A model generated the notes under the pieces. It saw only the letters and a list, made by a program, of their open reading frames with translations. It did no database searches and was not told where the DNA came from. Below are positions 5,724 through 33,249 of a stretch of 33,669 bases of DNA, one piece after another; within the stretch, counting starts at the first letter, position 1, and the number at the start of each line of letters is the position of its first letter. Source of the stretch: a virus; IMG/VR virus record IMGVR_UViG_3300042445_001385, positions 1 to 33,669 of that record. One strand, given 5' to 3'. Made by a program: the position numbers and the translations under genes.

Positions 5724-5755
5724 TTTGGAAATTAAATAAAAAATTTGTATATTTG
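5724..5755 (+). promoter_or_regulatory. Bacteroidota-type promoter, PolA-like gene (leaderless)
   Basis: TTTGG starts at 5724 and TATATTTG occupies 5748-5755, with exactly 20 nt between TTTG and the -7 box. The ATG at 5762 begins 6 nt after the -7 box, so transcription should start at or almost at the start codon. Confidence 0.75.
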
Positions 5756-5761
5756 TAGGGT

Positions 5762-7027
5762 ATGAATTTAATCGAAACAAATAACGCCCTATTAGCATTT
5801 TACAAATCCAATCCAAAGATAGATTTGATGGTGCCCGTATGGAGTTCTCCAAAGGCACACGAATATGATACATCCATATCATTTGCGTACCTTAGAACAA
5901 AGGATTCCGATTACATTATAAATTTCAATCACATCGATGCCGGACAATGTAGACAAGCAGCATTAAGTATGTTTGTGAATGAAAACACATTGGTTTATGG
6001 TAATCGATACATAGGTAGTAAAGGGCTCGATTATGAGTGGGTTTATTTTGAAGAGTATGGTAAGTCGTTCATATTCAATGAGTTCGCTGACGGGGTTTAT
6101 AAGGGGTACAGAAGCGACTTTAAATATCTAAACGATTGTGTACCTATGATGAGATGGTACGAGCTCTTAAAAACGATTCCATTAATTTCAGAAATTAAAC
6201 CTTGGTATAGAAAATATTCAGATTCTATTAAAATATTAGGGAGGCTGGAGGGGGCTGGGGTGAAAGTCGAAGAAGAAAAATTTATTGATAGATTTCATTT
6301 CAACAAAGAGTATCTGCCCAATGGGTTTGCGTACACAAAATACAATCCATATACGGTAACGGGTAGACCGAGTAATAGACATCTCAATGTGAATTGGGCT
6401 GCTATGAACAAATCCGATGGATGTAGAAGTAATATAGTGAGTAGATTTAAGGGGGGTACTTTGATTCAATTCGATTACGAGTCCTATCACATCCGTATCA
6501 TTGGTAAGATGGTTGGGTATGTATTTCCGGAGGGAGAAACTGCGCACGAACATTTAGCAAAATATTATGGGGTTACGACCGAAGAATCCAAAGCCTTATC
6601 ATTCCGATATCTTTATGGGGGATTAGATGAGTTTGCCAAAACCATTCCGTTCTTTCAAAAGGTGGATGAATATGTTCAATCGGTTTACCAAAAGTTCGTA
6701 ATTTCGGGAAAATTAACGACACCTCTATATAAGAGGGAAATTCCATTCCAACGAATCGAAGCCGCCAACGAACAAAAGGTGTTTAACTATTTACTTCAGG
6801 CGTTGGAAACTGAAATCAATTATACTAAAATTGATGAGGTACTGAAGTGGTGTGATGGGAGAAGGTCAAAAATGATTTTATATACCTACGATGCGTTCTT
6901 AATTGATGTACATCCACAGGATAGAGATAGCCTTTTGGGGGAGTTAACAAACACTTTGGAAAGAGGTGGATTTCCCGTCAAAACATATGAAGGAAGTAAT
7001 TACGACAATTTGGTTGTAATACAATAA
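5762..7027 (+). CDS. Short family A DNA polymerase-like protein (divergent)
   Basis: This 421-residue protein shows family A polymerase motifs in order. Thr-Gly-Arg is at 200-202. Motif A is Asp-Tyr-Glu-Ser-Tyr-His-Ile-Arg at 238-245, with the catalytic Asp at 238. The O-helix is Lys-Ala-Leu-Ser-Phe-Arg-Tyr-Leu-Tyr-Gly at 277-286. An Asn-x3-Gln pair at 342/346 matches the Klenow Asn845/Gln849 pair, and motif C has Asp377. Both metal-binding Asp residues are kept. Changes from Klenow include His at the steric-gate Glu710 position (residue 243), Thr at the Arg754 position, Tyr for His881 and Ala for Glu883. The first about 150 residues resemble a 3'-5' exonuclease fold but I see no Asp-x-Glu active site. 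The gene sits between baseplate and large unknown genes, and it has more G-runs than its neighbours. Polymerase activity is likely but unproven. Confidence 0.7.
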   Translation: MNLIETNNALLAFYKSNPKIDLMVPVWSSPKAHEYDTSISFAYLRTKDSDYIINFNHIDAGQCRQAALSMFVNENTLVYGNRYIGSKGLDYEWVYFEEYGKSFIFNEFADGVYKGYRSDFKYLNDCVPMMRWYELLKTIPLISEIKPWYRKYSDSIKILGRLEGAGVKVEEEKFIDRFHFNKEYLPNGFAYTKYNPYTVTGRPSNRHLNVNWAAMNKSDGCRSNIVSRFKGGTLIQFDYESYHIRIIGKMVGYVFPEGETAHEHLAKYYGVTTEESKALSFRYLYGGLDEFAKTIPFFQKVDEYVQSVYQKFVISGKLTTPLYKREIPFQRIEAANEQKVFNYLLQALETEINYTKIDEVLKWCDGRRSKMILYTYDAFLIDVHPQDRDSLLGELTNTLERGGFPVKTYEGSNYDNLVVIQ

Positions 7028-7076: not shown

Positions 7077-7316
7077 ATGAAATTAGTAAACCTAATCCCA
7101 TTAAAGGAGATAGATTTTAAAAATCAGGACCAATTTGATGCATATAGTAAAGAGCATGAATTAAGACCTTCTACTAAAGTTACAATCGCAGGTAAAGTTA
7201 CAACCGCTGGACAAGCAGCTAAGGAATCAGAACCTACTAAGGGTTCTTCAGTATTTGGTAAAGATAGTGGGGGTTCAGTATTCAATAAAGCAGGTGGAGC
7301 ATCTGCTAAATCAGAT
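7077..7316 (+). repeat. Direct repeat copy 1 (N-terminal module)
   Basis: This is the first copy of a 240-bp direct repeat inside the 818-codon gene. The partner copy is 1,215 bp downstream in the same frame. The first 35 nt are almost identical between copies. Confidence 0.85.
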
Positions 7317-9533
7317 AAAGTAGCCTCTAAACCCGATAGTATGGCAACTGTTAATTCAATTGCAGCTAAGACAGGATTAAGAGCACAAGCGGTAGCAGGT
7401 TGGGCAGATGAAAATGGTGTAAACCTTTCAAAAGTATCTGCTGATATTGATTCTAAAAAATTGAAACCTATGGATATGATGACCGCAGTTAGTGGTAATC
7501 CTGGTAACAAATACGCTAAAGATATAATTTCAAAATATTCACAAAGTGGTGAAACTTCAACCCCAAAAGGTAATATGGGAGTTGATAAAGTTGTTTATAA
7601 TACAAGAACTAAAACAGTTGGTATTGTACGAATGGCAGATGAAAAAGGTGAAACTAAAACTGATGCAGATGGTAATGTAAATACATCTGAATTAGAACCA
7701 TACAACCCAACAAAGTATCCACATCAAAAAGATGCACAGGTTGCACCATCTACACAAAAAGAAGTAGATAAGAGAGGATTATGGAATCCATTCGCACAAG
7801 ATGAACCTACTTCTAAATCAAAAGAAGCTAGAAAAGGTAATCCATCGGTAAATAAAGAAGCTAAGAAAAACGCAGAAACCTTTGGTATTACTCCACAAAA
7901 ATTGGGTAATGATGGATATAAAAAAGCAATGTATCAGGCAGCAGTTGAAGCTCTAACTGATTCAAACTTCCATGATGAGGCTAGAGAATTGATTTCAAAG
8001 ATTGAAGGAAAGCCTGAATGGGCTAAGAGGGTAGATTATCCAAAGATGGATGACCCTAAGTACAAAGAGAAAATGGCAGATATTAGAACTAATGGAGTAG
8101 ATAGTTCAGAATATTGGGGTGGAGAAGATGGTACGCATGAATTTGCTAGAAAAGTATCAGCATCTTCAGGATGGGATGGAGTTGAAGCAGCAGATGGTAT
8201 TGCATTCACATTAAGAATGAATGGATTTCATAAGCAAGCAGATATGATTCAATCCGTATTTGATGATAAACCATATATGAAAGAAAATAATATGAAATTA
8301 GTAAACCTAATTCCATTAAAGGAAATCGATTTTACAAATCAGGACCAATTTGATGATTATCAAAAGAAACATAGTTTAAGACCCGATACAAAGGTTACAA
8401 TAGCAGGTAAGCCACAAACTGTTGCACAGGCTTCTAAAAATTCTGAACCCGTAAAAGGAAGTTCAGTATTTGGTAAAGATAGTGGAGGTTCAGTATTCGC
8501 TAAAGCAGGCGGAGCATCTGCTAAATCCGATGGAGGTTCAAATGAAAAAGCCGATACTATAATTAAAGGATTGAAGCCCGCCAAATATGGTGGTAAACAT
8601 CCAGACTCTATGGAAATGGGTGGTTCTTTGTATAGAATTAATAGAAAAGGTGAAGCTGTTCGTGATAGAGAAGTTAGATTAAAGGATATTACTCCTGAAG
8701 ATATTACATCTACCGAAAAATTATTTGGTGTAGATTTGAGTAAAGGTATAGAAAATGGACTTGATTACGAAACCAACGATTTAATTATTCAAACTAAAAG
8801 ACTCCAACAATTTGATAAAGGTGGTGAGTTTGAAGATAAAAAGTTTTACGATTCACTTTTAAGTAATATAAAATCAGGGGTAGCAAAAGGTTACATGAAA
8901 AAGATTGCTGCAGCTGAAAAGGGAAAAGTATCAGCTATTAAATACCCTACCAAATCGGATGACCCATCATATTGGAAAGATGATAAAAAAAGTGATAGTC
9001 GTGGATATAGCCCATATAGAGATGATGATGAAGATGATAGTTGGGGAGAAGGCCCACAATTGACATCTGATAGATTAGGTAAAGTAGAAAGTGCATTAGA
9101 AACCGATTTGAAATTGAGTGCAAATGGATTTGAAACTACACGTGAGAGTGGCGGAGGAATGGGTGGATGGGAAGGACCTATGACAATCGTTTCCAACGAT
9201 GCTGACCAAGATAACGATGATTATATTAGTTTATCAGTAGGAAGTCCTGAAAATGATGGTACGTTTTCAATTGTATTTGCAAACGCAAATGGTGAACCAT
9301 ATTTTGAACCGGATTATGATGCATTAAGTGGTGATAAAACTTTAACACCACAACAGGCATTTAAAGTTACAAAAGCTTTAATGCAAATGCCTGAAGTTCA
9401 AAAGGTACTTAAAGGTGAAATGAGTAGAGATGAATTTCAACCAATATATGATAAACTGAAATCTAAATTTTCAAAAGGTTCTACTATTAAAGAGAATCAT
9501 ATAAAATTGAAATCTCTAATAAAAAGAAAATAA
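7077..9533 (+). CDS. Large protein with duplicated N-terminal module, function unknown
   Basis: The 818-residue product is two related halves. Residues 1-80 and 406-485 align without gaps with 66 of 80 identical, both starting Met-Lys-Leu-Val-Asn-Leu-Ile-Pro-Leu-Lys-Glu-Ile-Asp. Each module goes on through Asp-Gln-Phe-Asp, a Thr-Lys-Val-Thr-Ile-Ala-Gly-Lys strand and a Ser/Gly/Lys linker. After each copy the sequences diverge. The first half is Lys/Asp-rich with a helical end. The second has an acidic stretch and a compact domain at about 640-800. The opening resembles short N-terminal tags on T4-type head-internal proteins, and Leu-Lys-Glu fits a T4 prohead-protease-type Leu-x-Glu site, so an internal or packaged virion protein is possible. 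No enzyme motif was seen. The inner Met at 8292 may be a second start. Confidence 0.6.
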   Translation: MKLVNLIPLKEIDFKNQDQFDAYSKEHELRPSTKVTIAGKVTTAGQAAKESEPTKGSSVFGKDSGGSVFNKAGGASAKSDKVASKPDSMATVNSIAAKTGLRAQAVAGWADENGVNLSKVSADIDSKKLKPMDMMTAVSGNPGNKYAKDIISKYSQSGETSTPKGNMGVDKVVYNTRTKTVGIVRMADEKGETKTDADGNVNTSELEPYNPTKYPHQKDAQVAPSTQKEVDKRGLWNPFAQDEPTSKSKEARKGNPSVNKEAKKNAETFGITPQKLGNDGYKKAMYQAAVEALTDSNFHDEARELISKIEGKPEWAKRVDYPKMDDPKYKEKMADIRTNGVDSSEYWGGEDGTHEFARKVSASSGWDGVEAADGIAFTLRMNGFHKQADMIQSVFDDKPYMKENNMKLVNLIPLKEIDFTNQDQFDDYQKKHSLRPDTKVTIAGKPQTVAQASKNSEPVKGSSVFGKDSGGSVFAKAGGASAKSDGGSNEKADTIIKGLKPAKYGGKHPDSMEMGGSLYRINRKGEAVRDREVRLKDITPEDITSTEKLFGVDLSKGIENGLDYETNDLIIQTKRLQQFDKGGEFEDKKFYDSLLSNIKSGVAKGYMKKIAAAEKGKVSAIKYPTKSDDPSYWKDDKKSDSRGYSPYRDDDEDDSWGEGPQLTSDRLGKVESALETDLKLSANGFETTRESGGGMGGWEGPMTIVSNDADQDNDDYISLSVGSPENDGTFSIVFANANGEPYFEPDYDALSGDKTLTPQQAFKVTKALMQMPEVQKVLKGEMSRDEFQPIYDKLKSKFSKGSTIKENHIKLKSLIKRK
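8292..8531 (+). repeat. Direct repeat copy 2, with possible internal translation start
   Basis: This second copy starts at an in-frame ATG (8292) in an A-rich context like that of real gene starts here. It suggests that two once-separate tandem genes fused by loss of the intervening stop. The internal ATG could still produce a protein of about 413 residues. Confidence 0.8.
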
Positions 9534-11687: not shown

Positions 11688-12104
11688 ATGAATACACAAC
11701 TATTATGTTTATTTACATATAGACCAGAATTAGATATATCCTTACAATTTGTAATACAAAACTATGTCTTAATAAATCCAAATATCTTTATATTAGAAAA
11801 TAAAGTAAAGGAAGATGATTTATTTATCACATTCAATGTAGAGAAAGGTTCATCGCCAATAGATTCTCAATGGAAAACTATTTTAGTTCATAGAAAGAAG
11901 CAATCAAATACAATATATACAATTAACGCCTTAAACGAAGTTATTAAATCTAAAACAGGCGGACAATTAGATAACTCATATCAATTAGATTGGGAAGATT
12001 ATAGAAATTCTATAATTACTACATCAAACTACGGCTACAAAAAAATCCCCACAAAAGTTTACAAAAGTTTAAATCTATCTGATTTAAATAATAATACTTT
12101 TTGA
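11688..12104 (+). CDS. Small protein of unknown function
   Basis: This 138-residue protein starts 3 nt after the previous stop, so it is likely translated from the same message. The first about 90 residues look like alternating strands and helices (Leu-Leu-Cys-Leu-Phe-Thr-Tyr, then Ile-Phe-Ile-Leu-Glu-Asn). The C-terminal part has Trp-x-Asp-Tyr and Lys/Tyr-rich segments. I recognise no family. It is the last gene before the replication block, whose first promoter begins right at its stop codon. Confidence 0.5.
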   Translation: MNTQLLCLFTYRPELDISLQFVIQNYVLINPNIFILENKVKEDDLFITFNVEKGSSPIDSQWKTILVHRKKQSNTIYTINALNEVIKSKTGGQLDNSYQLDWEDYRNSIITTSNYGYKKIPTKVYKSLNLSDLNNNTF

Positions 12105-12136
12105 TTTGGAAATTCCGAATTAATTTATTATATTTG
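12105..12136 (+). promoter_or_regulatory. Bacteroidota-type promoter, replication block
   Basis: TTTGG starts at 12105 and TATATTTG is at 12129-12136 with a 20-nt gap. The leader to the ATG at 12177 is about 35 nt. Confidence 0.75.
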
Positions 12137-12672: not shown

Positions 12673-13521
12673 ATGGACATTTCATTAGCCTTGAAACGAT
12701 TTAATTCGTTACAAAACACTTCCAAAAAATCAGATTCACTTTGGAAGCCAACACCGGGAAAACATCAAATCAGATTAGTTCCCTACAAATTCAATAAGGA
12801 CATCCCTTTCATTGAATTATTCTTTCACTACAACATTAACAACAAAACTTATCTATCTCCAATTTCGTTTGGTAGACCTGACCCTATTGTTGAGTTTGCA
12901 GAAAAACTTAAACGTACAGGCGATACCGATGATTGGAAAGCAGGTAAGAAAATGGAGCCAAAATTAAGAACATTCGCACCTGTAATCGTAAGAGGTAAGG
13001 AAAGTGAAGGTGTTAAATTTTGGGGATTCGGTAAGACCGTTTATCAGGACATCTTAGGTTACATCGCTGACCCGGATTACGGAGATATCACAGACCCATT
13101 AAATGGTAGAGATATCGTATTGGAAATCGTTGCAGCTGAAGAATCAGGTACATCGTATCCAACTACTACAATTCGTGTTAAACCGGCTCAAACAAAGGTA
13201 GCTGATACACCGGATGCAATTCAAAATGTTTTAGATAACCAAAAGGATATTACCGAAGTATATTCGGAATTATCTTACGCTGAATTAAAAGGTGTATTAG
13301 AAAATTGGTTAAACCCATCAGCAGCAATATCTACTGATAGTGTAGTTGAAGAATTAGAAGCTCCTAAACAAGCTCCTAAAGTAACTGCACAACCATCGGC
13401 AGATTTGGGTGGAACATCTGATATTAGTGGAGATTTACCTTGGGAAACCGAAGAAGCTCCAAAAGCAGCAGCACCAAAAGACGATGTAGCATCGGCATTC
13501 GATGATTTATTCAACAACTAA
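12673..13521 (+). CDS. gp32-like single-stranded DNA-binding protein, no zinc site
   Basis: This 282-residue protein has the gp32 layout. An N-terminal helical, basic segment is followed by an Arg-Leu-Val-Pro-Tyr strand and an aromatic/basic OB-fold-like core (about 30-170, with Lys-Phe-Trp-Gly-Phe-Gly-Lys-Thr-Val-Tyr). A flexible Ala/Pro/Glu linker leads to an acidic tail ending Phe-Asp-Asp-Leu-Phe. It coats ssDNA during replication and recruits partners through the acidic tail. The T4 protein binds zinc through His and Cys residues; this one has no cysteine at all. Where homologues have a Cys-Pro-x-Cys-like turn it has Asp-Pro-Ile-Val (70-73). It is followed 14 nt later by uvsX, its usual recombination partner. 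Confidence 0.75.
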   Translation: MDISLALKRFNSLQNTSKKSDSLWKPTPGKHQIRLVPYKFNKDIPFIELFFHYNINNKTYLSPISFGRPDPIVEFAEKLKRTGDTDDWKAGKKMEPKLRTFAPVIVRGKESEGVKFWGFGKTVYQDILGYIADPDYGDITDPLNGRDIVLEIVAAEESGTSYPTTTIRVKPAQTKVADTPDAIQNVLDNQKDITEVYSELSYAELKGVLENWLNPSAAISTDSVVEELEAPKQAPKVTAQPSADLGGTSDISGDLPWETEEAPKAAAPKDDVASAFDDLFNN

Positions 13522-13535
13522 TTAAAAAAGTTACA

Positions 13536-14642
13536 ATGGCCAAAAGAGAAGAAGACTTAGCGAGCATACTCGCTGACACTCTCAACAAACAAAATAAGGA
13601 TGGTAAGATTGCCTATTTCTTAGATGACGATAGTACGGATGCACCTACTAACGTTAAAGATTGGTTATCTACCGGAAATGCAATGTTAGATGTTGCGATT
13701 TCAAATCGTCCTTATGGTGGTTTACCGGTTGGTCGTATTAGTGAGATTACGGGTTTAGAGCAGAGTGGAAAATCTCTGCTCTCCGCCCATCTCTTAGCAG
13801 AAACCCAAAAGAAGGGTGGTGTTGCAGTACTAATAGATACGGAAACCGCAGTAAGTAGAGAATTTTTAGAAGCAATCGGAGTAGATATCTCAAAACTACT
13901 TTACGTTTCAGTTGATACTGTTGAAGGTATTTTCGAAGCGTGTGAAACGATTATTGAGAAAGTAAGAACGGGTGATAAAGATAGATTAGTTACAATCGTA
14001 GTCGATTCGGTAGCAGCGGCATCTTCAAAGAAAGAGATGGAAGCTGATTATGATAAAGATGGGTACGCAACTGATAAAGCTATTATCATTTCCAAAGCAA
14101 TGAGAAAGATTACCAATATGATTGGTAGACAATCAATCGCTTTAGTATTCACAAATCAGTTAAGACAGAAGATGAACGCAATGTTTGGTGACCCTTGGAC
14201 AACATCAGGTGGTAAAGCATTGGCATTCCATAGTTCAGTTAGATTGAGATTGAAGAGTATGGGGCAATTGAAAGTTGGTGATAGAATCGTTGGTATCAAA
14301 GTTCGTACGCAAGTTATTAAAAATAGAATGGGGCCACCATTAAGGTGTGCAGATTTTGATATCTTCTTTGATAGAGGTATCGATAACTACGGAGGTTGGT
14401 TAGCAGTTATGAAAGATGCTAAAATCTTAAAGCAAGCAGGAGCTTGGTATGAATATATTGATATTGATACAGGCGAAATTAGTAAATTCCAATCTAAAGA
14501 CTTCACTAAGATGTTAGAGAACGAAGAACTAAAAGACCAAATCTATCGTAGGATTTGTGAGGCAACCATTTTACAATACAAAACAAATTCGGCAACGGAT
14601 GAAGTTGAATCAACAACGGACGGAGCAAATGAGTCAGATTAA
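13536..14642 (+). CDS. uvsX: UvsX-type RecA-family recombinase
   Basis: This 368-residue protein has the RecA-core motifs. Walker A is Gly-Leu-Glu-Gln-Ser-Gly-Lys-Ser at 73-80, with a catalytic-Glu strand Asp-Thr-Glu at 101-103. Walker B is Val-Thr-Ile-Val-Val-Asp at 152-157. A DNA-binding loop region around 205-235 has Thr-Asn-Gln-Leu-Arg followed by Ser-Gly-Gly-Lys-Ala. UvsX forms filaments on ssDNA for strand exchange and recombination-dependent replication. Its size is close to T4 UvsX. It lies just after the gp32-like gene and overlaps the start of the next gene by 14 nt, which suggests coupled translation. The C-terminal tail is acidic. Confidence 0.9.
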   Translation: MAKREEDLASILADTLNKQNKDGKIAYFLDDDSTDAPTNVKDWLSTGNAMLDVAISNRPYGGLPVGRISEITGLEQSGKSLLSAHLLAETQKKGGVAVLIDTETAVSREFLEAIGVDISKLLYVSVDTVEGIFEACETIIEKVRTGDKDRLVTIVVDSVAAASSKKEMEADYDKDGYATDKAIIISKAMRKITNMIGRQSIALVFTNQLRQKMNAMFGDPWTTSGGKALAFHSSVRLRLKSMGQLKVGDRIVGIKVRTQVIKNRMGPPLRCADFDIFFDRGIDNYGGWLAVMKDAKILKQAGAWYEYIDIDTGEISKFQSKDFTKMLENEELKDQIYRRICEATILQYKTNSATDEVESTTDGANESD

Positions 14643-15687
14643 TAAGAAGTATTTAGATATACTAAAACAAATAGATGAAGAACATAAAGGATTTGGAGAT
14701 TTACAACGTAATTCCAAAACCTTAGTTATTGATGGTCTTAATACCTTCATTCGTTCTTGGTCAACCGCTCCGAATCTTAATGATAACGGAGACCACATTG
14801 GAGGAATAGTCGGTACTTTAAAAAGTATCGGCTACGCCATCCGACTAATTAACCCTACAAGAGTAGTCGTAGTATTCGATGGTAAAGGGGGTTCAAACAG
14901 CAGAAAAGAAATATACGCAGGATACAAATCCGAAAGAGGCAAGAATAAAATCAAAATGAGATTGAATCGCGCCGCTTCAGTTGAAATGAATCCTGAAGAA
15001 GAAAGTGCATCTATGAAACGTCAAATGACGGGATTAGGAGAACTTCTATCTGCTCTACCCGTAACCATTATGATTTACGATGGAATCGAAGCTGATGATG
15101 TAATGGCTTATATAGCTACTACATTAAAGAAAGAAAATGAGAAAGTAGTAATAATGAGTTCGGATAAAGATTTTCTTCAATTAGTGAATAAAGATGTTAG
15201 TGCATATTCACCATCTAAGAAGAAGATTTATACAATCGATGAAGTAAAAGAAGAATACGGATTTCATCCACATAACTTTATTAATTTCAGAATGATTGAT
15301 GGCGATAAATCCGATAATGTAGAAGGTATCACAGGTTTAGGTGCAAAAACGATTATCAAAGCATTTCCAATACTAACTGAAGAAAATGTGCATACTACCG
15401 AATCTATGTTGGAGTATATTGAAACTCTACCAAAGAAAATAAAAGCACACGAATTATTTCAAAACAATTTGGAAATCTTAAAAAGAAATCGTAAATTGAT
15501 GCAGTTATCCGAACCAGACTTTAGTGGAACGCTTCGTTTAAAAATAATGGATAGGTTCAATGAATCAACTCCAAAGTTTGATAAGCATTCATTTCTAAAG
15601 TTAGGAATAAAGAATCGTATGTTAGATGCGTTTCCAAATGTAAACGATTGGTTACAATCAACATTTTCACATATTAGTAAATTTTAA
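14629..15687 (+). CDS. 5'-3' exonuclease / RNase H (FEN family)
   Basis: I chose the ATG at 14629, which overlaps the uvsX stop by 14 nt, over a further-upstream in-frame ATG at 14557 that lies deep inside uvsX. The 352-residue product has the metal-binding acidic residues of the FEN/T4 RNase H family: Asp35 (Leu-Val-Ile-Asp-Gly-Leu-Asn), Asp84 (Phe-Asp-Gly), Glu154/Asp156/Asp157 (Ile-Glu-Ala-Asp-Asp), Asp179/Asp181 (Ser-Ser-Asp-Lys-Asp) and Asp226/Asp229. A helix-hairpin-helix-like Gly-Ile-Thr-Gly-Leu-Gly-Ala-Lys-Thr follows at 233-241. Such enzymes remove RNA primers and 5' flaps on the lagging strand. The position next to uvsX and gp41 fits. Confidence 0.85.
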   Translation: MSQINKKYLDILKQIDEEHKGFGDLQRNSKTLVIDGLNTFIRSWSTAPNLNDNGDHIGGIVGTLKSIGYAIRLINPTRVVVVFDGKGGSNSRKEIYAGYKSERGKNKIKMRLNRAASVEMNPEEESASMKRQMTGLGELLSALPVTIMIYDGIEADDVMAYIATTLKKENEKVVIMSSDKDFLQLVNKDVSAYSPSKKKIYTIDEVKEEYGFHPHNFINFRMIDGDKSDNVEGITGLGAKTIIKAFPILTEENVHTTESMLEYIETLPKKIKAHELFQNNLEILKRNRKLMQLSEPDFSGTLRLKIMDRFNESTPKFDKHSFLKLGIKNRMLDAFPNVNDWLQSTFSHISKF

Positions 15688-16031: not shown

Positions 16032-16274
16032 ATGAAGTGTATTAAAGTAGTAAGAGAAACAAAAGACAATAAAATTGGTACAATTCGTAGAGTAGCAGAC
16101 TCAGAAGCGGATACCAAAGTAAGTAGTAAAGTATGGGCGTTCTGCCCAAAATCAGAGTGGAAGTTAGCAACTCGAAAACCAAAGAGTGTGCAAGTTAGTG
16201 ACCAAGTTACCGACCAAGTAGAGGAATTATCAATCGAAGAGAAAAAATTAGCAAGAAAGAAAACTAAGAAATAA
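16032..16274 (+). CDS. Small basic protein of unknown function
   Basis: This 80-residue protein has an N-terminal half resembling a small phage domain: Thr-Ile-Arg-Arg-Val-x-Asp-x-Glu-Ala, then Trp-Ala-Phe-Cys-Pro-Lys-Ser-Glu-Trp-Lys (about 35-45). The Lys-rich C-terminal tail (Lys-Lys-Leu-Ala-Arg-Lys-Lys-Thr-Lys-Lys) could bind nucleic acid. Its stop overlaps the helicase start (TAATG), so the two are translationally coupled. It may be a helicase accessory factor, but this is only a guess from position. Confidence 0.6.
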   Translation: MKCIKVVRETKDNKIGTIRRVADSEADTKVSSKVWAFCPKSEWKLATRKPKSVQVSDQVTDQVEELSIEEKKLARKKTKK

Positions 16275-17632
16275 TGGAAGCAATAGATACACTAGTCAAA
16301 TATGGCCAATCGTATCAATCTAAAGTTGTTGCTTCTCTTATATCAGATGTAAAGTTCTTAGAACAGGTAACTGAAATAACCAAACCAGCTTTTTTTGAAT
16401 CACAAGCCAACCAATGGATTATCGAAGAAGTACAACGCTACTTCGATGAATACCGAACAGTTCCCACAATGGAAGTGTTTAAAATCAAAGTAGGGGTTGT
16501 TGATGATAAAGCATTAAAGCAAACTGTAATTGAACAATTAAAAAATGTTTATTTACAAATAGGTTCGGAAGATTTACCATATGTTAAAAAAGAATATCTT
16601 ACATTTGCTAAGAATCAAAAAGTAAAAGATGCCCTTCTAAAATCGGTAGATTTACTCAAAGCAGGTAACTACGATAAGATTATAGATACAATGATGGCAG
16701 CATCCAAAGTTGGTGTAGAAAACGACTTAGGGATGGATTACATCGATAATTTTGAACTGATTATGGAAGATGTTAAACGTTTTTCAGTATCAACGGGATG
16801 GGATGTAATTGATGAATTAACGGATGGTGGATTAGGACCAGGCGAATTAGGAGTTGTAATGGCTCCATCTGGTATTGGTAAAAGTTGGTTCTTATCTAAA
16901 ATAGCATGTTCAGCAGTTCAGCAGGGTATGAATGTTTTACATTATACTTTGGAATTATCCGAAAGTTATGTGGGACAGAGATACACAACAATTCTTACAG
17001 GTATCCAAACATCCGAACACAAAGAACGTAAAGATGAGATTATTCGTAAGATTAAGAATACGCCAGGTAGAGTTCGTATTAAATACTATCCTCCGCAATT
17101 TGCATCTGCCAAAACACTTTCGGCTCATATTGAAAAATTAAGAGCTAGTGGATTTAATCCAAATCTAATCATTATAGATTACGCTGATTTATTAAAAAGT
17201 GGTAATAGTAATAGAGATGGATTGTATGCAGAATTAGGTGGTATCTATGAAGAGTTGAGAGGATTAAGTGGTGAACAACAAATTCCTATTTGGACAGCAA
17301 CTCAAACTAATAGAGCAGCTATTGACCACGAAATTATCGGAGCTGATTCAGTTGGTGATTCATATAAGAAAGTTCAAACTGCCGATTTCATTATGAGTGT
17401 TAGTAGAAAAACAAAGGATAAGTTATCAAACACAGGCCGTATTCACATCGTTAAGAATCGATTTGGACCTGATGGAATGACATTTCCGGCAAAGATTGAT
17501 ACTTTCCATGGGGTAATGGATATATTTGCAGCCAACTCCGCTGATGGTGTAATCGCTACAAAAGATTCTAAAAATGGAGAGAATTTAGAAAAGAAATTAT
17601 TACACAAAAAGTATGTAGAGAATATGGGATAA
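16274..17632 (+). CDS. Replicative DNA helicase, DnaB/gp41 type
   Basis: This 452-residue protein has a helical N-terminal domain (about 1-150) followed by a RecA-type motor. Walker A is Ala-Pro-Ser-Gly-Ile-Gly-Lys-Ser at 197-204. The catalytic-Glu region is Thr-Leu-Glu-Leu-Ser at 225-229, and Walker B is Leu-Ile-Ile-Ile-Asp-Tyr-Ala-Asp at 298-305. A later Gln-Thr-Asn-Arg sensor and a Lys-Asn-Arg-Phe-Gly-Pro arginine-finger-like segment follow. This is the T4 gp41/DnaB family that unwinds DNA 5'-3' on the lagging strand. No primase domain is fused to it and none was recognised elsewhere in the window. Length fits gp41. Confidence 0.88.
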   Translation: MEAIDTLVKYGQSYQSKVVASLISDVKFLEQVTEITKPAFFESQANQWIIEEVQRYFDEYRTVPTMEVFKIKVGVVDDKALKQTVIEQLKNVYLQIGSEDLPYVKKEYLTFAKNQKVKDALLKSVDLLKAGNYDKIIDTMMAASKVGVENDLGMDYIDNFELIMEDVKRFSVSTGWDVIDELTDGGLGPGELGVVMAPSGIGKSWFLSKIACSAVQQGMNVLHYTLELSESYVGQRYTTILTGIQTSEHKERKDEIIRKIKNTPGRVRIKYYPPQFASAKTLSAHIEKLRASGFNPNLIIIDYADLLKSGNSNRDGLYAELGGIYEELRGLSGEQQIPIWTATQTNRAAIDHEIIGADSVGDSYKKVQTADFIMSVSRKTKDKLSNTGRIHIVKNRFGPDGMTFPAKIDTFHGVMDIFAANSADGVIATKDSKNGENLEKKLLHKKYVENMG

Positions 17633-21932: not shown

Positions 21933-22688
21933 ATGAAAGTAGAAGGAAAAGATTATTGTGATATATCGAAACTTTCAATTAGATTAGTAAGTAAAGATAT
22001 AGCAAAAGACATTATCGTTAATAACCATTATAGTGGAATATGGACGAAAGTATCTTATGCTATTGGTTTATTTTATATATCAAACGATGAGCACAAATTT
22101 TTTGGTGGTGTAAACGAACAACTTATTGGAGTTGCCTGCTATGGTGACCCGATTGGTAGACATTCCGGCGCATCCATATCTGAAACATTAGATAGAACGG
22201 AAGTTTTAGAACTTACCCGTTTATTTGTATTTGATGGGTATGGTAGTAATATTGAGAGTTGGTTTGTCGGACAAACTTTCAATTGGTTAAGAGAAAATGC
22301 ACCACATATCAAAGCATTAGTATCATATTCAGACCCAAAAGTTGGACATTTAGGAACTGTATATCAAGCAACAAATTGGGTATATCAGGGAAATAGAATC
22401 AGACCAAATGATAGTTGGAGTTTTAAATGGAAGGAAGATGAGGAGTGGCATCATAGTAGAACATCCTTTGTAAGATATGGTACGAATGACCCAAAGATAA
22501 TTCAAACAATGGTATCAGTGCCATTTTGGATTAAAAAAGAACCACGCAAACATAGGTACGTTTATATACTATCACATGGTAAAGAAAAAAAGAAATTATT
22601 TAAATCATTAAAATACCCATCTCTACCATATCCAAAATTAAACGTGGAATTTGTGGAAGAGATACTCAAATTAGAGCCAATAAAATAA
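21933..22688 (+). CDS. Mom-like DNA-modification enzyme (GNAT-type), copy 1
   Basis: The 251-residue protein matches the phage Mu Mom-like family, GNAT-fold enzymes; Mu Mom converts adenine in DNA to a carbamoylmethyl form that blocks restriction. Visible motifs are Asn31-His-Tyr-Ser-Gly35, a Leu-Ile-Gly-Val strand with Tyr-Gly-Asp-Pro (70-73), Val-Leu-Glu-Leu-Thr-Arg-Leu (91-97), Ser-Tyr-Ser-Asp-Pro (131-135), Gly-His-Leu-Gly-Thr and Tyr-Gln-Ala-Thr-Asn-Trp-Val-Tyr-Gln-Gly (144-153). A His-His-Ser-Arg-Thr motif and a basic C-terminal extension follow. The gene is 4 nt upstream of a clear paralogue. Substrate base and added group cannot be read from the sequence; the family call is firm, the chemistry is not. 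Confidence 0.75.
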   Translation: MKVEGKDYCDISKLSIRLVSKDIAKDIIVNNHYSGIWTKVSYAIGLFYISNDEHKFFGGVNEQLIGVACYGDPIGRHSGASISETLDRTEVLELTRLFVFDGYGSNIESWFVGQTFNWLRENAPHIKALVSYSDPKVGHLGTVYQATNWVYQGNRIRPNDSWSFKWKEDEEWHHSRTSFVRYGTNDPKIIQTMVSVPFWIKKEPRKHRYVYILSHGKEKKKLFKSLKYPSLPYPKLNVEFVEEILKLEPIK

Positions 22689-22692: not shown

Positions 22693-23496
22693 ATGAAAGA
22701 AGAAGGCAAAAATTATTGCGATACATCCAAAGTGTATATTGCACCAATCACCAAAGATGTAGCAAAAGATATTATCGTAAAGAAACACTACACACACGCT
22801 TGGACAGCTTGTAGATACGCTTTGGGTATTTTCTATAAAATGGATGAATCCAATGCATTAGGTGAAGATAATAAATTAATTGGATGTTTGGTTTACGGAT
22901 TTCCGGTTGGAGCAAGAGCAGCAACTTCTATTTCTGATTTACTTACAAAAGATAACGTATTAGAATTAACTCGTCTTTATTGTGATGATGGGTATGGCTC
23001 TAACATCGAATCATACGCAATGGGACAATCATTCAAATGGTTTAGAGAAAACGATAAGGCTATTAAAGCACTTATTTCTTATGCAGATAATGGACAAGAA
23101 CATTTGGGTGGAATATATCAAGCAACAAATTGGATTTATCAGGGGTTAAATACTGATATTGCACTAATGCCAAATTATGGTATATCTTTATCAAATGACC
23201 CATTCAAATGGATTCATAGTAGGACTGTGTTTACAAAGTGGGGTAGTGGTAATTTAGAACATCTTCGTAGAGAAATTGGTAAGGATGGATATAAGCAATT
23301 TTGGAGAAGAGAAGAGCCACCAAAGCATAGATATCTTCAAATCGTTACAGCTGATAAGAAAGAAAAGAAAGCAATTATGAAAACTTTCAAACACGAAATC
23401 AGACCTTATCCAAAAGACACACGAGCGTTCAATAAAGATATTCAGGTGTGGGAAACAATTGCACCCGAATCAGAAATAGATGCCAAATTTTGGTAA
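22693..23496 (+). CDS. Mom-like DNA-modification enzyme (GNAT-type), copy 2
   Basis: This 267-residue paralogue of the preceding gene shares the same order of motifs: Lys31-His-Tyr-Thr, Val-Tyr-Gly-Phe-Pro (67-71), Val-Leu-Glu-Leu-Thr-Arg-Leu (89-95), Tyr-Gly-Ser-Asn-Ile-Glu-Ser (101-107), Ser-Tyr-Ala-Asp (129-132), and Tyr-Gln-Ala-Thr-Asn-Trp-Ile-Tyr-Gln-Gly (142-151). It differs at the first motif (Lys-His-Tyr-Thr-His against Asn-His-Tyr-Ser-Gly) and in the loop after the Trp motif, where it is longer. That suggests a different DNA target or added group rather than simple redundancy. It ends inside the next promoter: the -33 box overlaps its last codons. Confidence 0.75.
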   Translation: MKEEGKNYCDTSKVYIAPITKDVAKDIIVKKHYTHAWTACRYALGIFYKMDESNALGEDNKLIGCLVYGFPVGARAATSISDLLTKDNVLELTRLYCDDGYGSNIESYAMGQSFKWFRENDKAIKALISYADNGQEHLGGIYQATNWIYQGLNTDIALMPNYGISLSNDPFKWIHSRTVFTKWGSGNLEHLRREIGKDGYKQFWRREEPPKHRYLQIVTADKKEKKAIMKTFKHEIRPYPKDTRAFNKDIQVWETIAPESEIDAKFW

Positions 23497-23520
23497 TTTA
23501 AAATTAATTAGTTATATTTG
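23489..23520 (+). promoter_or_regulatory. Bacteroidota-type promoter, DUF4338-like gene (leaderless)
   Basis: TTTGG starts at 23489 within the 3' end of the second Mom-like gene, and TATATTTG is at 23513-23520. The gap is 20 nt. The ATG at 23525 is 4 nt downstream, so the message should lack a leader. Confidence 0.75.
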
Positions 23521-23524
23521 TAAT

Positions 23525-24751
23525 ATGAAATTTTGGAACACAGGCGAAGAAACAAACACAACCACATTTGATTATGATGTGATGAAAAGAAAGTTCATTG
23601 AAAATTTGGACTATCTTAAAGAAATGTCAGTAGAAGAACAAACTCTATATAAGAAGTGGATTGAGTGGAATGCTGATAGAGTTACGCATATGAAACGATT
23701 ACCTGCGTTACAATCATATTATGATTCATTGTGGAAGCCAGCTGATATCAACAATAAGGAATTAACTATTTCAGAAATTGAAGCATTAGACCCTTATGTA
23801 GAAATCGTGGAAGATGACCCGAAGGAATCAACTCGTTGGACTGAAATTCGTAAACTAATCCACACAATGGAGTTTTCTGCTAATCCTGGCAGAAACGTAA
23901 AGATATATGTTAAAGATAGAACAAGTGGAAAGATATTAGGACAGATTTGTTTAGGTTCTGATATTACTTCATTGGGAGTTAGAGATGAATATATAGGATG
24001 GACTAAAGAAGATAAGTTTGAGAAAGGTAAATTAAATTGTACATCTATTGCTACAACCATCGTATCAACTCAACCATTTGGTTATAACTTCTTAGGTGGT
24101 AAGTTAATAGCAGCATTATCAACTGCACCCGAAGTTAGAGCATATTGGAAAACCAAATATGATAACCCATTAGTTGGGGTAGGTACAACATCTTTATATG
24201 GCATTCATTCACAATATAATGGTATTCCTCATTTCAAAACATTGGGGGAATCCAAAGGTAAGATTTCTACAAAGCCAGATGATTCAGTTTACAATCCTTG
24301 GCATCAATGGATTAAAGAAAATCGTTCCGAATGGTATAAGACACATATTATGGATGAAAGAGAGCGTAATGGTGCTAATATGGGGTACGAAAAGAACGGA
24401 CCTGTAAGTGGAATTAAACAAAAGATTATTCAGGCAATTTTCAAAGAATTGGGAATCAAAGGAAACGCTTATGACCACGGATTCCAAAGAGGTGTGTATT
24501 TTGCACCAATATACCAAAATGGTAATGAATTCTTAAAATCGAACATCGAAGAAAAGGATTTAATCATTAATGAAAAGTTTGCTAAAGGAAACGAATATAC
24601 TACAAAATGGTGGAAGGATAAAGCCATCAAACGATATACAAAACTATACGATGAGGGTAGAATCAAACCCGAAGTATTATTCTATGTTGATTCCATTGGT
24701 ATGACATGGGAGCAAATGAAAGAAGCCTATTTAAAAGAGGTTGGTAGATAA
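23525..24751 (+). CDS. DUF4338 (Druantia DruA)-like protein
   Basis: The start at 23525 is set by the promoter; an upstream in-frame ATG at 23480 would overlap the -33 and -7 boxes. The 408-residue protein has a helical N-terminal part, then a domain with Phe-Ser-Ala-Asn-Pro-Gly-Arg-Asn-Val (117-125), Gly-Lys-Ile-Leu-Gly, Val-Arg-Asp-Glu-Tyr-Ile-Gly-Trp (152-159), Gln-Pro-Phe-Gly-Tyr-Asn (183-188), a Gly-Gly-Lys-Leu helix and Thr-Thr-Ser-Leu-Tyr-Gly (221-226). I read this as DUF4338, the domain of DruA in the Druantia anti-phage system. The Arg-Asp-x-x-Ile-Gly-Trp motif and the order of elements are also reminiscent of GNAT-like folds such as Mom. Its role in a phage is unknown; neighbours suggest DNA modification. 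Confidence 0.55.
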   Translation: MKFWNTGEETNTTTFDYDVMKRKFIENLDYLKEMSVEEQTLYKKWIEWNADRVTHMKRLPALQSYYDSLWKPADINNKELTISEIEALDPYVEIVEDDPKESTRWTEIRKLIHTMEFSANPGRNVKIYVKDRTSGKILGQICLGSDITSLGVRDEYIGWTKEDKFEKGKLNCTSIATTIVSTQPFGYNFLGGKLIAALSTAPEVRAYWKTKYDNPLVGVGTTSLYGIHSQYNGIPHFKTLGESKGKISTKPDDSVYNPWHQWIKENRSEWYKTHIMDERERNGANMGYEKNGPVSGIKQKIIQAIFKELGIKGNAYDHGFQRGVYFAPIYQNGNEFLKSNIEEKDLIINEKFAKGNEYTTKWWKDKAIKRYTKLYDEGRIKPEVLFYVDSIGMTWEQMKEAYLKEVGR

Positions 24752-26392: not shown

Positions 26393-27505
26393 ATGAATTT
26401 TTGGGAAAGTATAGATTATAATAAAGCAAGGAAAGTGTTGGTGATACCTAATATCACCAACTCTTCCAATATTGAAAAGGATTCTTTTGTGGATGTTATA
26501 TACAATCATATAAAATCATTGGAATCGCATGGAGAATTCTTTTGGAATATTATATTACCACAACCCGTTAAGAAATTAAATCTAATAAATGTAAAGCAAC
26601 ACATACTTCAATTTTCAGGCGATATGATTAAAATGAGAACATATCCACCCGATATGAATCGTTTGTTGGAAACATTAGAATATGATGTAATATATTCTCA
26701 TTTGCCCGATTGGCCGCAAGTTGGTAGATATAAGAACGATTTCAAAACCAATGTAATTGGATATTGTCATTGGTGGGAAATGAAATCTTGCAATGCAGAA
26801 GATAGAAAAAACAAATGGAGATGGATGCCGATTGAATTATTGGGGGTATCTCAAATGGAAACTTGCTTCTTAAATACGCAAGAACAAAAAGATAGAGTTT
26901 TAGAAGAAGCAAAATTATGGTTCAATGATTTGTTTATTCAAAAATTAAGTAGTATATTAGTAGTATGGAATTTAGGAATAGATGTTACAAAAATCATCGA
27001 ATCGCCTAAACCAAAAGAAAAGGTTATTGTATTCAATCATAGGGCAGCTGCATATAAAGGATATCCATCGTTTATTAAGTTGATGGAAGAGTATAGAGGA
27101 CGTAGACAAGATTTCAAAGTTTGGGTGCCTCAATTGGATGGTAAGCCTGAATTTGGTTGGATTGATAATACCAAAGTAGCTAAGCATGATTATTATAAAA
27201 AGTTACAATCTTGCTCCGTTGGAATTCAAATGAGGCAGACTAATTATGGTTGGAGTGTAGCGGCTACCGATTGTATGATGAATGGAACTCCTATGATATT
27301 TCAGGAATCAGATTGTTACAAAGAGATAGACCCAAATGGGTTGTTCTTTAAATATAAAAAGGATTTGTTTGATATGTTAGATAAAATATTAGATGATGAA
27401 AATCATAGATTACAATTATCTAATAAAGCAATTGAGAGAGCAAAGGCGCTATCTGAAAACGATAGTAGGATGATTAAAATATTAAACGAAAAACTAAGAG
27501 GATAA
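26393..27505 (+). CDS. GT-B glycosyltransferase (GT4-like)
   Basis: This 370-residue protein has a two-Rossmann (GT-B) layout. The C-terminal half carries Val-Ile-Val-Phe-Asn-His-Arg-Ala-Ala-Ala-Tyr-Lys-Gly-Tyr (about 211-224), a strand Phe-Lys-Val-Trp-Val-Pro, and Cys-Ser-Val-Gly-Ile-Gln-Met-Arg followed by Gly-Trp-Ser-Val-Ala-Ala-Thr-Asp-Cys-Met-Met-Asn-Gly-Thr-Pro. That is where GT4 enzymes bind the nucleotide sugar. It starts 3 nt after the DUF262-HNH gene, and its stop overlaps the gp43 start. In T4-like phages GT-B enzymes glucosylate DNA, so a base-modifying role is plausible. Protein or surface-glycan modification cannot be excluded. Confidence 0.6.
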   Translation: MNFWESIDYNKARKVLVIPNITNSSNIEKDSFVDVIYNHIKSLESHGEFFWNIILPQPVKKLNLINVKQHILQFSGDMIKMRTYPPDMNRLLETLEYDVIYSHLPDWPQVGRYKNDFKTNVIGYCHWWEMKSCNAEDRKNKWRWMPIELLGVSQMETCFLNTQEQKDRVLEEAKLWFNDLFIQKLSSILVVWNLGIDVTKIIESPKPKEKVIVFNHRAAAYKGYPSFIKLMEEYRGRRQDFKVWVPQLDGKPEFGWIDNTKVAKHDYYKKLQSCSVGIQMRQTNYGWSVAATDCMMNGTPMIFQESDCYKEIDPNGLFFKYKKDLFDMLDKILDDENHRLQLSNKAIERAKALSENDSRMIKILNEKLRG

Positions 27506-30066
27506 TGTATCAAAATATTTATTACGAAAGGCAAAAGAATTTAATTCATCTATGGGATGATAAAAGTGGATATCAAACATTCCCATATCGAAAGTATGCG
27601 TACAAACGAGATACACATGGTGAGTATCTTTCTATGTATGGTGATAAACTAAGCAAAGTTGGTAAGTGGGAAAAAGAAGATGCCGAAGATTTATTTGAAT
27701 CGGATGTTCCCGAAACAACGAGAGTTTTGGTAGATATATACGAAAATGATTTACCATCGAAAGGACATAGAGTTCTCACATTTGATATTGAGGTAGAGAT
27801 GATATCAGGTCTACCAAACACAAAAGATGCAAAGAATGAAATTACGGCAATTGCTGCACATGATGGAGCAACAAAGCTGTATGATGTATTCGTATTAGAT
27901 AAAGAACGTAAGGTTAAGAATAAAGCCAAAAACTTTAATAAAGATGGTAGAGAAGTTACTCTTCATATATTCGATAATGAAAGAAATCTATTACAGGCAT
28001 TCCTTAATTATTACGAAGAAGTAAACCCAACAATTCTAACGGGTTGGAATATTGACTTCTTTGATATTCCCTATTTGTATAACCGATTAAAGAATGTATG
28101 TGGCGAAGGACATGCTAAACGATTATCACCGATAGGACAGGCATTTTGGTCACCATATAGAGAAAAGTTTAGTTTTGGTGGTGTATCTATTTTGGATTAT
28201 ATCAATCTATATAAAACATACACATATTCATTAGAAGCATCTTATACCTTAAATTATATTGCTACAAAAGAATTGGGTAGAGGTAAGATTGAGTACGAAG
28301 GAAGTTTAGATGATTTATTCGAAAACGATTTGGAAAAGTTTATTGAGTACAACATTGTCGATGTGGACTTAGTTGTATCGATGGATGATAAACTTCAATT
28401 TATTGAATTATGTAGAGCCGTTTGTCACGCCGGATATGTACCATATGAAGATTACATTTATTCATCAAAGTGGTTAGAAGGAGCTTGTTTAGGATATCTT
28501 AAAAAGAAAGGATTGGTAGCAACCAATAAACCACGAGATAGGAAAGAAAGAATGCAGGCTCTTAGAGATAACAACCAAGAGAAGTTTATTGGAGCATATG
28601 TAAAAGAACCTATTGTTGGTAAGTATGATTGGATTTATGATTTGGATTTAACATCCCTATACCCATCAATTATTATGACCCTAAATATCAGTCCCGAAAC
28701 CAAAGTTGGTAAGATTGAAAATTGGGATGCAGAGGCTAATATTAAAGGATTAGATACGACATATAAGTTAGTGGGTAAGGATGGCGATGAGTACTCATAT
28801 ACGACTCAGGAACTGAAGGAAGTTATCAAAGATAGTAATTTAGGTGTTGCGGCAAATGGGGTTCTATATACACAGGATAAGAAGGGTCTTATCGCTGATA
28901 TTTTAAATGATTGGTTTGAAAAGCGTGTTGAGTTTAGAAAATTAGAAAAACAATATGGTGAAGCGGGTGATACGGAGAAATATGACTTTTATGCTAAAAG
29001 GCAGCTTGTTCAGAAGATTCTTCTTAATTCTATGTATGGTGTTCTTGGCCTTCCTGCCTTTCGGTTTTACGATATTGATAATGCAGAGGCAGTTACGGTT
29101 ACGGGTCAAACTGTTATTAAGAAAACGGCGGAGATGGCAAATAGAAAATATTGGAAAGAATTAGGAACAACCGATGACTACAATGTCTATATTGATACGG
29201 ATTCAATCTATATGATGGCAGAGCCTTTGGTAAAACATAGATACCCAGATTATAAGACATTCGATGAGAAGAGAATGGCAGTTGAAGTGGATAACATCGC
29301 AACTGAAACACAAACATTCTTAAATTCATTCTATGATATGTTGGCTGAAAGATTCTTCTTTATTCCAAAAGAGAAACATCGTTTTGAGATTAAGAAAGAA
29401 TATATCAGTAAAGCAGGATTTTGGGTAGCAAAGAAGAGATACGCTCAATGGATGGTATTAAAAAATGGTATTCCATGCGATAAGTTAGATGTTAAAGGAT
29501 TGGATGTAGTTCGTTCATCTTTCCCCAAAGCATTTCAGGACCAAATGAGTGGTATGTTGAAAGATATCCTTATGGGTAAAGATAATGAGTATGTTGATAC
29601 AAAGTTATTAGCATTTAAAGCTAGTATGATTAATTTGCCGGTTAATAAGATAGCAAAGGGTGGAGCAATTAAAGAGTTAAGTAAATATGATAATGGTACT
29701 TGGAGAAAAGATAGTGGGTTATCAATTGCATCTTTTGAAAAAGGAACACCTGCGCACGTTAAAGCTGGAATTACTTATAATCGATTATTAAAGTTCTTTA
29801 ATGCACCATATAAGCACGAACCAATTAGAGATGGTGATAAAGTAAAATGGGTATATCTTAAAAATAATCCGTTGGGGTTGGAGACTGTGGCGTTTAAGGA
29901 TTATAATGACCCGAAGGAAATTATGGATTTCGTAGAACAATACATTGATAGAGATAAATTATATGTATCGGATATGGAAAATAAGGTAGATGATTTCTAT
30001 ACCGCACTTAAATGGCAGAAAGCTTCAACTGAAGCCCTAACTGCGAAAAAGTTTTTCTCATTTTAA
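27505..30066 (+). CDS. 43: DNA polymerase, family B (gp43)
   Basis: This 853-residue replicase has a 3'-5' exonuclease and a polymerase. Exo I is Phe-Asp94-Ile-Glu96. Exo II is Gly-Trp-Asn-Ile-Asp-Phe-Phe-Asp (about 178-185). Exo III is Tyr-Asn-Ile-Val-Asp (about 284-288). Polymerase motif A is Asp-Leu-Thr-Ser-Leu-Tyr-Pro-Ser (about 380-390), motif B Lys-x3-Asn-Ser-Met-Tyr-Gly, motif C Tyr-Ile-Asp-Thr-Asp-Ser (about 561-567), and Lys-Lys-Arg-Tyr follows. All catalytic acids are present, so it should be active with proofreading. The C-terminus ends Lys-Lys-Phe-Phe-Ser-Phe, like the clamp-binding tail of T4 gp43. It is coupled to the glycosyltransferase upstream (TAATG) and followed by its clamp. 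Confidence 0.95.
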   Translation: MYQNIYYERQKNLIHLWDDKSGYQTFPYRKYAYKRDTHGEYLSMYGDKLSKVGKWEKEDAEDLFESDVPETTRVLVDIYENDLPSKGHRVLTFDIEVEMISGLPNTKDAKNEITAIAAHDGATKLYDVFVLDKERKVKNKAKNFNKDGREVTLHIFDNERNLLQAFLNYYEEVNPTILTGWNIDFFDIPYLYNRLKNVCGEGHAKRLSPIGQAFWSPYREKFSFGGVSILDYINLYKTYTYSLEASYTLNYIATKELGRGKIEYEGSLDDLFENDLEKFIEYNIVDVDLVVSMDDKLQFIELCRAVCHAGYVPYEDYIYSSKWLEGACLGYLKKKGLVATNKPRDRKERMQALRDNNQEKFIGAYVKEPIVGKYDWIYDLDLTSLYPSIIMTLNISPETKVGKIENWDAEANIKGLDTTYKLVGKDGDEYSYTTQELKEVIKDSNLGVAANGVLYTQDKKGLIADILNDWFEKRVEFRKLEKQYGEAGDTEKYDFYAKRQLVQKILLNSMYGVLGLPAFRFYDIDNAEAVTVTGQTVIKKTAEMANRKYWKELGTTDDYNVYIDTDSIYMMAEPLVKHRYPDYKTFDEKRMAVEVDNIATETQTFLNSFYDMLAERFFFIPKEKHRFEIKKEYISKAGFWVAKKRYAQWMVLKNGIPCDKLDVKGLDVVRSSFPKAFQDQMSGMLKDILMGKDNEYVDTKLLAFKASMINLPVNKIAKGGAIKELSKYDNGTWRKDSGLSIASFEKGTPAHVKAGITYNRLLKFFNAPYKHEPIRDGDKVKWVYLKNNPLGLETVAFKDYNDPKEIMDFVEQYIDRDKLYVSDMENKVDDFYTALKWQKASTEALTAKKFFSF

Positions 30067-32526: not shown

Positions 32527-32762
32527 TAAACGAACAATTTCAACAACCGCAAATTGATTTAAAAGATACACGAGATGTACCATGTGAATGTGGTAATTTA
32601 ATCTTTATGCCGGGTTATAGATTCCGTAAGGCTTCTAAGTTATTAACCGGTGGTGATAAAGATACTGTTATGCCATTCGAAGTATTCTTATGTACAAATT
32701 GTGGTAAACCATTACAAGAGTTCTTACCAGAAGAATTACAAATTTCAAAAGAAGAAAAATAA
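32523..32762 (+). CDS. Small zinc-ribbon-like protein
   Basis: The 79-residue protein has two cysteine pairs, Cys21-x-Cys23 and Cys57-x-x-Cys60, with hydrophobic strands between them, as in a compact zinc ribbon. It lies between gp44 (4-nt overlap) and gp62 (1-nt overlap) and so is probably made together with the clamp loader. No named family was recognised. It could bind nucleic acid or a replisome partner; in T4 this interval holds no such gene. Confidence 0.65.
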   Translation: MINEQFQQPQIDLKDTRDVPCECGNLIFMPGYRFRKASKLLTGGDKDTVMPFEVFLCTNCGKPLQEFLPEELQISKEEK

Positions 32763-33217: not shown

Positions 33218-33249
33218 TTTGGTTTATTGAAATAAAATTCGTATATTTG
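33218..33249 (+). promoter_or_regulatory. Bacteroidota-type promoter, PD-(D/E)XK gene (leaderless)
   Basis: TTTGG starts at 33218 and TATATTTG is at 33242-33249, gap 20 nt, with TTCG just before the -7 box. The ATG at 33254 begins 4 nt after it. Confidence 0.75.

Follow-up and report, generated by a model that had tools for sequence, protein, structure and literature searches.

A divPolA1-type divergent family A DNA polymerase gene upstream of the replication and recombination genes of a T4-related phage

The locus and its gene neighborhood

The window is the whole 33,669-nucleotide stretch of IMG/VR virus record IMGVR_UViG_3300042445_001385. Near its left end it carries a gene that homology assigns to the published divPolA1 group of polymerases, and replication and recombination genes are encoded to the right of it. 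The features of the neighborhood, with the evidence in brackets, are:

5724 to 5755, + strand: TTTGG-N-TATATTTG promoter of Bacteroidetes type, with 6 nt between its end and the divPolA1 ATG (sequence pattern)
5762 to 7027, + strand: divPolA1 gene, divergent family A DNA polymerase, 421 aa (Pfam, profile, model, alignment)
11688 to 12104, + strand: uncharacterized conserved protein of about 138 aa, lying between divPolA1 and gp32 (homologues at the same relative position)
12673 to 13521, + strand: gp32-like ssDNA-binding protein (Pfam gp32, 1.5e-14)
13536 to 14642, + strand: UvsX/RecA-like recombinase (Pfam RecA, 4.6e-60)
14557 to 15687, + strand: 5'-3' exonuclease of the Pol I 5'-nuclease/T4 RNase H superfamily, a separate protein (Pfam 5_3_exonuc_N, 6.8e-33)
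16274 to 17632, + strand: gp41/DnaB-like replicative helicase (Pfam DnaB_C, 5.5e-19)
27505 to 30066, + strand: gp43-like family B replicative polymerase with exonuclease (Pfam DNA_pol_B, 2.2e-35; DNA_pol_B_exo1, 3.1e-25)
31579 to 32526, + strand: gp44-like clamp-loader ATPase (Pfam AAA, 2.9e-19; DNA_pol3_delta2, 6.3e-13)
32762 to 33214, + strand: gp62-like clamp-loader small subunit (Pfam Phage_clamp_A, 5.2e-10)

The polymerase ORF has an ATG start with a TAG in frame just upstream, and there is no competing frame of note. Of 89 relatives from the clade of the window, 63 have the strict form of the promoter in this position, and most of the others shown have degenerate forms. If the start site is as in Bacteroidetes, so short a distance between promoter and ATG should give an mRNA with hardly any leader. 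Promoter-like sites of the same pattern at 23489-23520 and 33218-33249 also have an ATG about 5-6 nt past their ends, which likewise predicts near-leaderless mRNAs, and a fourth at 12105-12136 lies about 40 nt ahead of the gp32 unit. The true start of the 5'-3' exonuclease is probably downstream of 14557.

The position of the gene is a shared one. It lies between baseplate-type or other structural genes and the gp32-uvsX-exonuclease-gp41 set in the window, in Flavobacterium phage immuto, in Microcystis phage Mel-JY01 and in the record L160, and replication genes are also found downstream of it in L001, L003 and L160. Where gp32-anchored loci reach about 8 kb or more upstream, divPolA1 is upstream of gp32 in 22 of 22, loci that are not all independent; the counts of co-occurrence likewise share ancestry. 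An apparent loss of the gene in L404 was rejected, the gene being located further upstream on the contig. In four records (L399, L402, L405, L413) divPolA1 is 34-40% identical to that of the window and gp32 is 67-70% identical, a gap due either to fast divergence or to in-place replacement by another divPolA1 lineage. Nearly all of the gp32-anchored loci have a homologue of the 11688-12104 protein, and similar ORFs are present in L160 and L161; the protein has no Pfam match and is a possible divPolA1 partner.

Several other genes of the window deserve mention. Two adjacent Mom-family genes at 21933-22688 and 22693-23496 (Pfam Mom, 2.6e-44 and 2e-42) form a tandem pair, judging from which the phage probably modifies its adenines. 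They are followed by a DruA-like gene at 23480-24751 (PF14236, 8.7e-22), which probably begins at 23525 instead, about 5 nt past a promoter of the divPolA1 type. The large protein at 7077-9533 has an internal duplication, with MKLVNLIPLKEIDF...NQDQFD at the N-terminus and again near aa 405. The protein at 24908-26389 matches GmrSD_N weakly (0.00015, under the cut-off) and looks HNH-like at its C-terminus; the gene next to it, at 26393-27505, looks like a glycosyltransferase. Phage immuto (L336, MW353176.1) has at 18607-36971 the genes QueC, QueD, QueE, FolE and QueF together with DpdA, as annotated, which constitute a 7-deazaguanine DNA modification pathway.

Family assignment and predicted fold

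Taken alone, the protein matches Pfam DNA_pol_A weakly (3.9e-05, 23.2 bits), under the gathering cut-off of 34.3 that some divPolA1 relatives exceed. PHROG 2573 "DNA polymerase" scores 0.001, and a PDB sequence search with the single protein gives no match, so that a profile is needed. A 17-member divPolA1 profile retrieves DNA polymerase I entries with Klenow at the top (4e-06), the sole exception being the last, a weak and unrelated match. With a 33-member profile, hhalign aligns the family to five ordinary phage PolAs at 98.4% probability (6.6e-15), with TGR, motif A, the O helix, the Q region and motif C all in register.

The AlphaFold2 model, built from a 33-sequence alignment, has a mean pLDDT of 93.4 and a pTM of 0.89. 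Foldseek finds as the best solved match the Klenow fragment-DNA complex 1kln (E = 9.2e-18, probability 1.00, 15% identity), with a TM score of 0.71 by query length and an alignment that spans the whole Klenow fragment. Pol nu, Pol theta, Taq and Bst rank after Klenow, and phage PolAs are matched in the viral library. Because the single-sequence Pfam score falls under the gathering cut-off, it is the profile and structure searches that settle the family A membership. On these alignments and this model we consider it confirmed that the ORF is real and its product a family A polymerase-like protein under strong conservation, one having palm motifs A and C with the metal-binding Asp residues, the O helix and Gln849 equivalent, and the Klenow fold, and having neither the Glu steric gate nor Arg754, which are usual in family A but not required. 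The preliminary description had proposed a second, divergent family A polymerase beside gp43, and this holds: the palm is present, the matches lead to Klenow, and gp43 has family B domains.

Two regions of the protein are reduced:

5762 to 6169, + strand: degenerate N-terminal 3'-5' exonuclease-like domain, aa 1-136 (alignments, Foldseek alignment)
6170 to 6346, + strand: thumb remnant, aa 137-195 (HMM alignment; model helix 149-164)

Neither DxE nor other exonuclease carboxylates are at the expected places in the alignment of aa 1-136, in line with the earlier observation that no active site is visible in the exonuclease-like N-terminus. About 87 Klenow thumb residues are absent, query 174-187 spanning Klenow chain 227-327 in the HMM alignment, and the first thumb helix is retained as helix 149-164 of the model. 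The palm and fingers are complete in sequence and model, with the fingers about 20 residues shorter than in Klenow judging by the motif spacing of K277-N342 versus K758-N845. Eight comparisons with close relatives give dN/dS values of 0.06-0.20 for the whole gene, a sign of strong purifying selection, and the palm and the dead exonuclease domain have comparably low values; pairs with dS near or above 1 are less reliable. Low dN/dS in the dead domain suggests that it still has a job, perhaps a structural one.

The family was named divPolA1 from 14 genomes including that of immuto (Yutin et al. 2024, Virol J 21:200, PMC11348598). The accessible text of that paper agrees with our reading of the palm as conserved, the thumb as truncated and the exonuclease as inactive. 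It reports that these genomes also encode a regular polymerase of family A, B or C and that the genes downstream of divPolA1 are conserved replication genes, and it concludes that divPolA1 most likely retains polymerase activity; the same text does not discuss a His steric gate, the YD(A/S) motif C, the loss of Arg754 or a 5'-3' exonuclease partner. A literature search for the name divPolA1 found solely this paper and its preprint. We judged membership against the protein of Flavobacterium phage vB_FspM_immuto. The window protein matches the first-gene protein of immuto_3-5A by tblastn at 2e-30, with 29% identity over a matched part of 289 residues, and the joint alignment places the two together. 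With this homology, the truncated thumb, dead exonuclease and palm, the regular polymerase beside it and the replication genes downstream, the window protein is by sequence a divPolA1 member, and so a new member of a known family.

IMG/VR holds hundreds of divPolA1 relatives in several clades, and the window belongs to a clade other than that of immuto, a large one of phages with Bacteroidetes-type promoters. Named phages with the gene are Microcystis phage Mel-JY01, the 484-kb LR756508 and Flavobacterium phage immuto; two more relatives are on MAG contigs labelled Winogradskyella and Rickettsiaceae, which are phage-like in look. A pattern-based IMG/VR search with the LR756508 protein returned no relatives. 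To the published family we add the IMG/VR relatives, the invariant His for Glu710, the Tyr-Asp-Ala/Ser motif C, the dN/dS values, the gp32 synteny, the co-occurrence with a 5'-3' exonuclease and a primase, and the pairing with either gp43 or a full-size PolA.

Active site motifs across the family

Conservation was counted over 203 distinct full-length homologues, in clades that are about 25-30% identical to one another. The motifs are:

6359 to 6376, + strand: TxRPSN motif, aa 200-205, equivalent to Klenow T666-G667-R668 (T200, R202, P203, N205 in 203/203)
6473 to 6496, + strand: motif A, DYESYHIR, aa 238-245, with D238 equivalent to Klenow D705 (D238, H243 in 203/203)
6590 to 6619, + strand: O helix/motif B, aa 277-286, with K277, F281, Y285 and G286 (203 homologues)
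6776 to 6820, + strand: KxxNYxxQxxETxxN, aa 339-353, with N342 and Q346 equivalent to Klenow N845 and Q849 (203 homologues)
6881 to 6895, + strand: motif C, YTYDA, aa 374-378, with D377 equivalent to Klenow D882, Tyr for His881 and Ala for Glu883 (203 homologues)

Besides the TxRPSN residues T200, R202, P203 and N205, all 203 homologues have N211, D238, H243, K277, F281, Y285 and G286, and in the C-terminal half K339, Q346, E349, T350, N353, Y374, Y376, D377 and A378; N342 is kept in 201. Conservation of the catalytic residues and of H243 to this extent is not chance. Some of the invariants, K339, E349, T350, N353, N211 and R222, are specific to the family and would not be expected from Klenow. 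Much of what the preliminary description had read from one sequence thus extends to the family. Both catalytic Asp residues, D238 and D377, are retained in every homologue, so that their loss in relatives is not seen, and the O-helix Lys and Tyr and the Asn-x3-Gln pair are K277, Y285, N342 and Q346 in the alignment. Its Tyr-Asp-Ala motif C stands for the window (Y376-D377-A378) and for the 203, and gives way to YDS, Ser for Ala, in two distant members (L399, L413). Its Thr at the Arg754 position stands for the window only, as T273; the family varies there among Y, T, I, L, V and A and mostly has Tyr.

The change at the steric gate is the more distinctive one. H243 is at the Glu710 position (D+5), as had been noted, and the position is His in 203 of 203 homologues and in four further lineages that keep the TxRPSN, D..(Y)H and K...F...YG motifs. 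Regular phage PolAs used for comparison have Glu at the gate wherever the motif could be found, and have E, S or Q as the third residue of motif C, which makes the motif C change less remarkable than the gate change. The distribution of His is most simply explained by a single ancestral Glu to His replacement, and its constancy over so many lineages argues that the change is functional rather than drift. We read the alignment to mean that His for Glu is a real remodelling of the active site, giving a remodelled gate and not a plainly open one, and that His243 probably still contacts the sugar region.

Candidate roles and comparison with known systems

What else the phages encode was surveyed in 18 larger divPolA1 records, some of them incomplete contigs. 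A gp43 or DNA_pol_B is present in 10, and a full-size PolA with no PolB in 5, all immuto-type; three contigs of 137-176 kb, possibly incomplete, have neither. PolC was rejected as the missing replicase of contigs without gp43, occurring solely in LR756508, and divPolA1 was rejected as the sole polymerase of immuto-type phages without gp43, a full-size PolA being present there. A 5'-3' exonuclease is found in 18 of 18 and a separate DnaG-type primase homologue in 14. No PF01068 match to a phage ATP-dependent ligase was found in the 18, so that the ligase of any Okazaki kit would be the host's or of another type. The gp43 gene is in several pieces at 259363-267281 of LR756508.1 and in two ORFs at 53165-56522 of record G014, which may reflect introns, inteins or a split polymerase. 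That divPolA1 is constant while the main replicase differs, family A versus family B, points to a task separate from main replication, in a whole group of large phages that keeps two polymerases for good, the small one constant and the main one varying.

From the motifs and the model we think it fairly probable that divPolA1 works in the replication-recombination module as an accessory DNA polymerase, catalytically active but of low processivity and unable to proofread. It would be a minimal family A polymerase, extra to the replicative polymerase of large T4-related phages, and would add nucleotides without proofreading and in short DNA patches. The low processivity is expected, from what is known of Pol I, with most of the duplex-gripping thumb gone. 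Lack of proofreading raises the error rate and thumb loss lowers the grip on DNA, which makes short-patch synthesis likelier than genome copying. Loss of Arg754 and the changed partners in motifs A and C mean that the activity could be low or altered.

The specific job is a more tentative matter, with two that seem likeliest. Since a Pol I-type 5' nuclease is a separate gene of this module, the two proteins may be the halves of a split Pol I, together carrying out gap filling or primer replacement; we hold this as a plausible candidate that falls somewhat short of even chances. Alternatively, the accessory polymerase may do repair synthesis during UvsX-dependent recombination. Synteny and exonuclease co-occurrence do not count as independent support, all the loci having one module in common, and it speaks against the accessory-polymerase reading as a whole that divPolA1 diverges faster than its neighbors. 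T4 needs no more than RNase H and gp43 to mature its Okazaki fragments, which leaves no obvious call there for a second polymerase. If the split is true, these phages carry their own Okazaki or gap-repair set and do not use the host's.

Among other explanations, a translesion polymerase is unlikely, though the best placed of them. As a loose, error-prone enzyme without thumb and exonuclease, it would extend past lesions that stop gp43. The absent proofreading, the shortened thumb and the place of this second polymerase near UvsX would fit, as would a fold close to those of human Pol nu and human Pol theta, two family A enzymes known for translesion synthesis. However, any family A enzyme would match those two somewhat, a protein shorter than Klenow leaves no room for insertions like theirs, and the damage-related neighbors are recombination genes only.

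Relaxed sugar selection is less likely again. The replaced Glu gate would then let the enzyme use rNTPs, for RNA primer synthesis, RNA patching or RNA-primed starts, and the lineage would have had its sugar selection rebuilt around His to take ribonucleotides or mixed substrates in a dedicated replication or recombination step. The constancy of His, set against the Glu of ordinary phage PolAs, is what speaks for it. The aromatic assistant of the gate is Phe762 and the gate itself Glu710/Glu480 in a 2026 preprint on T7 PolA (PMC13228545), and the Phe762 equivalent, F281, is invariant in divPolA1. His is also bulky, and in families B, X and Y an aromatic residue serves as the steric gate, so that sugar discrimination may persist and the substitution alone does not prove its loss. 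Family A RNA polymerases such as T7 RNAP have Gly at the gate position. The DnaG-type primase in 14 of the 18 large relatives makes it unlikely that priming is a dedicated role of divPolA1, and these relatives, the window being too short to tell, also speak against divPolA1 as sole priming enzyme in place of a DnaG/gp61-type one. The modified dNTPs suggested in the preliminary description are not called for either: Mom-like modification, as in the window, and preQ/DpdA modification, as in immuto, are kinds that act on finished DNA, which leaves no reason to expect unusual dNTPs. The invariant His gate poses a cheaply testable question on sugar choice in family A.

Just as improbable is a protein with little or no catalysis, in which the polymerase fold would serve to bind primer ends or some other replication protein. 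The lost Arg754, changed motif C, missing thumb and family-specific invariants might argue for it, but invariance of both catalytic Asp residues, the TxR Arg, the O-helix Lys and the Gln across very diverged sequences is not expected after loss of catalysis.

An accessory polymerase, as we prefer to read divPolA1, can be set beside three known systems. The divPolA2 proteins of barbaviruses (Vibrio phage 1.063.O AUR84708; PMC11348598) are also divergent extra PolAs without an exonuclease and with a second polymerase present, but they have Glu in motif A (DFKAFE), FDE in motif C, an unrelated N-terminal domain and a variable gene context. Membership of the window protein in divPolA2 was rejected, hhalign giving 0.15% against AUR84708 and the motifs being different. 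With the Klenow fragment of E. coli Pol I, divPolA1 shares the fold, the motif order, the catalytic Asp residues, the position of the exonuclease-like domain, and the equivalents of Lys758, Phe762, Tyr766 and Asn845/Gln849. Unlike Klenow, the window protein is about 180 residues shorter, with a dead exonuclease and the thumb deletion, and has Glu710 changed to His, His881 to Tyr and Glu883 to Ala, in addition to the loss of Arg754.

The third system is immuto, whose divPolA1 is homologous over most of its length and has the palm, the truncated thumb, the dead exonuclease, a regular polymerase beside it and replication genes downstream. It is from another clade, and where the regular polymerase of the window is gp43, that of immuto is probably a full-size PolA. 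This 777-aa protein, immuto35A_71, is of family A and shares its genome with divPolA1, and with a strong PF00476 match (about 1e-58), a replicase-like character and Glu at the gate in the alignment it is probably the regular polymerase of immuto-type phages.
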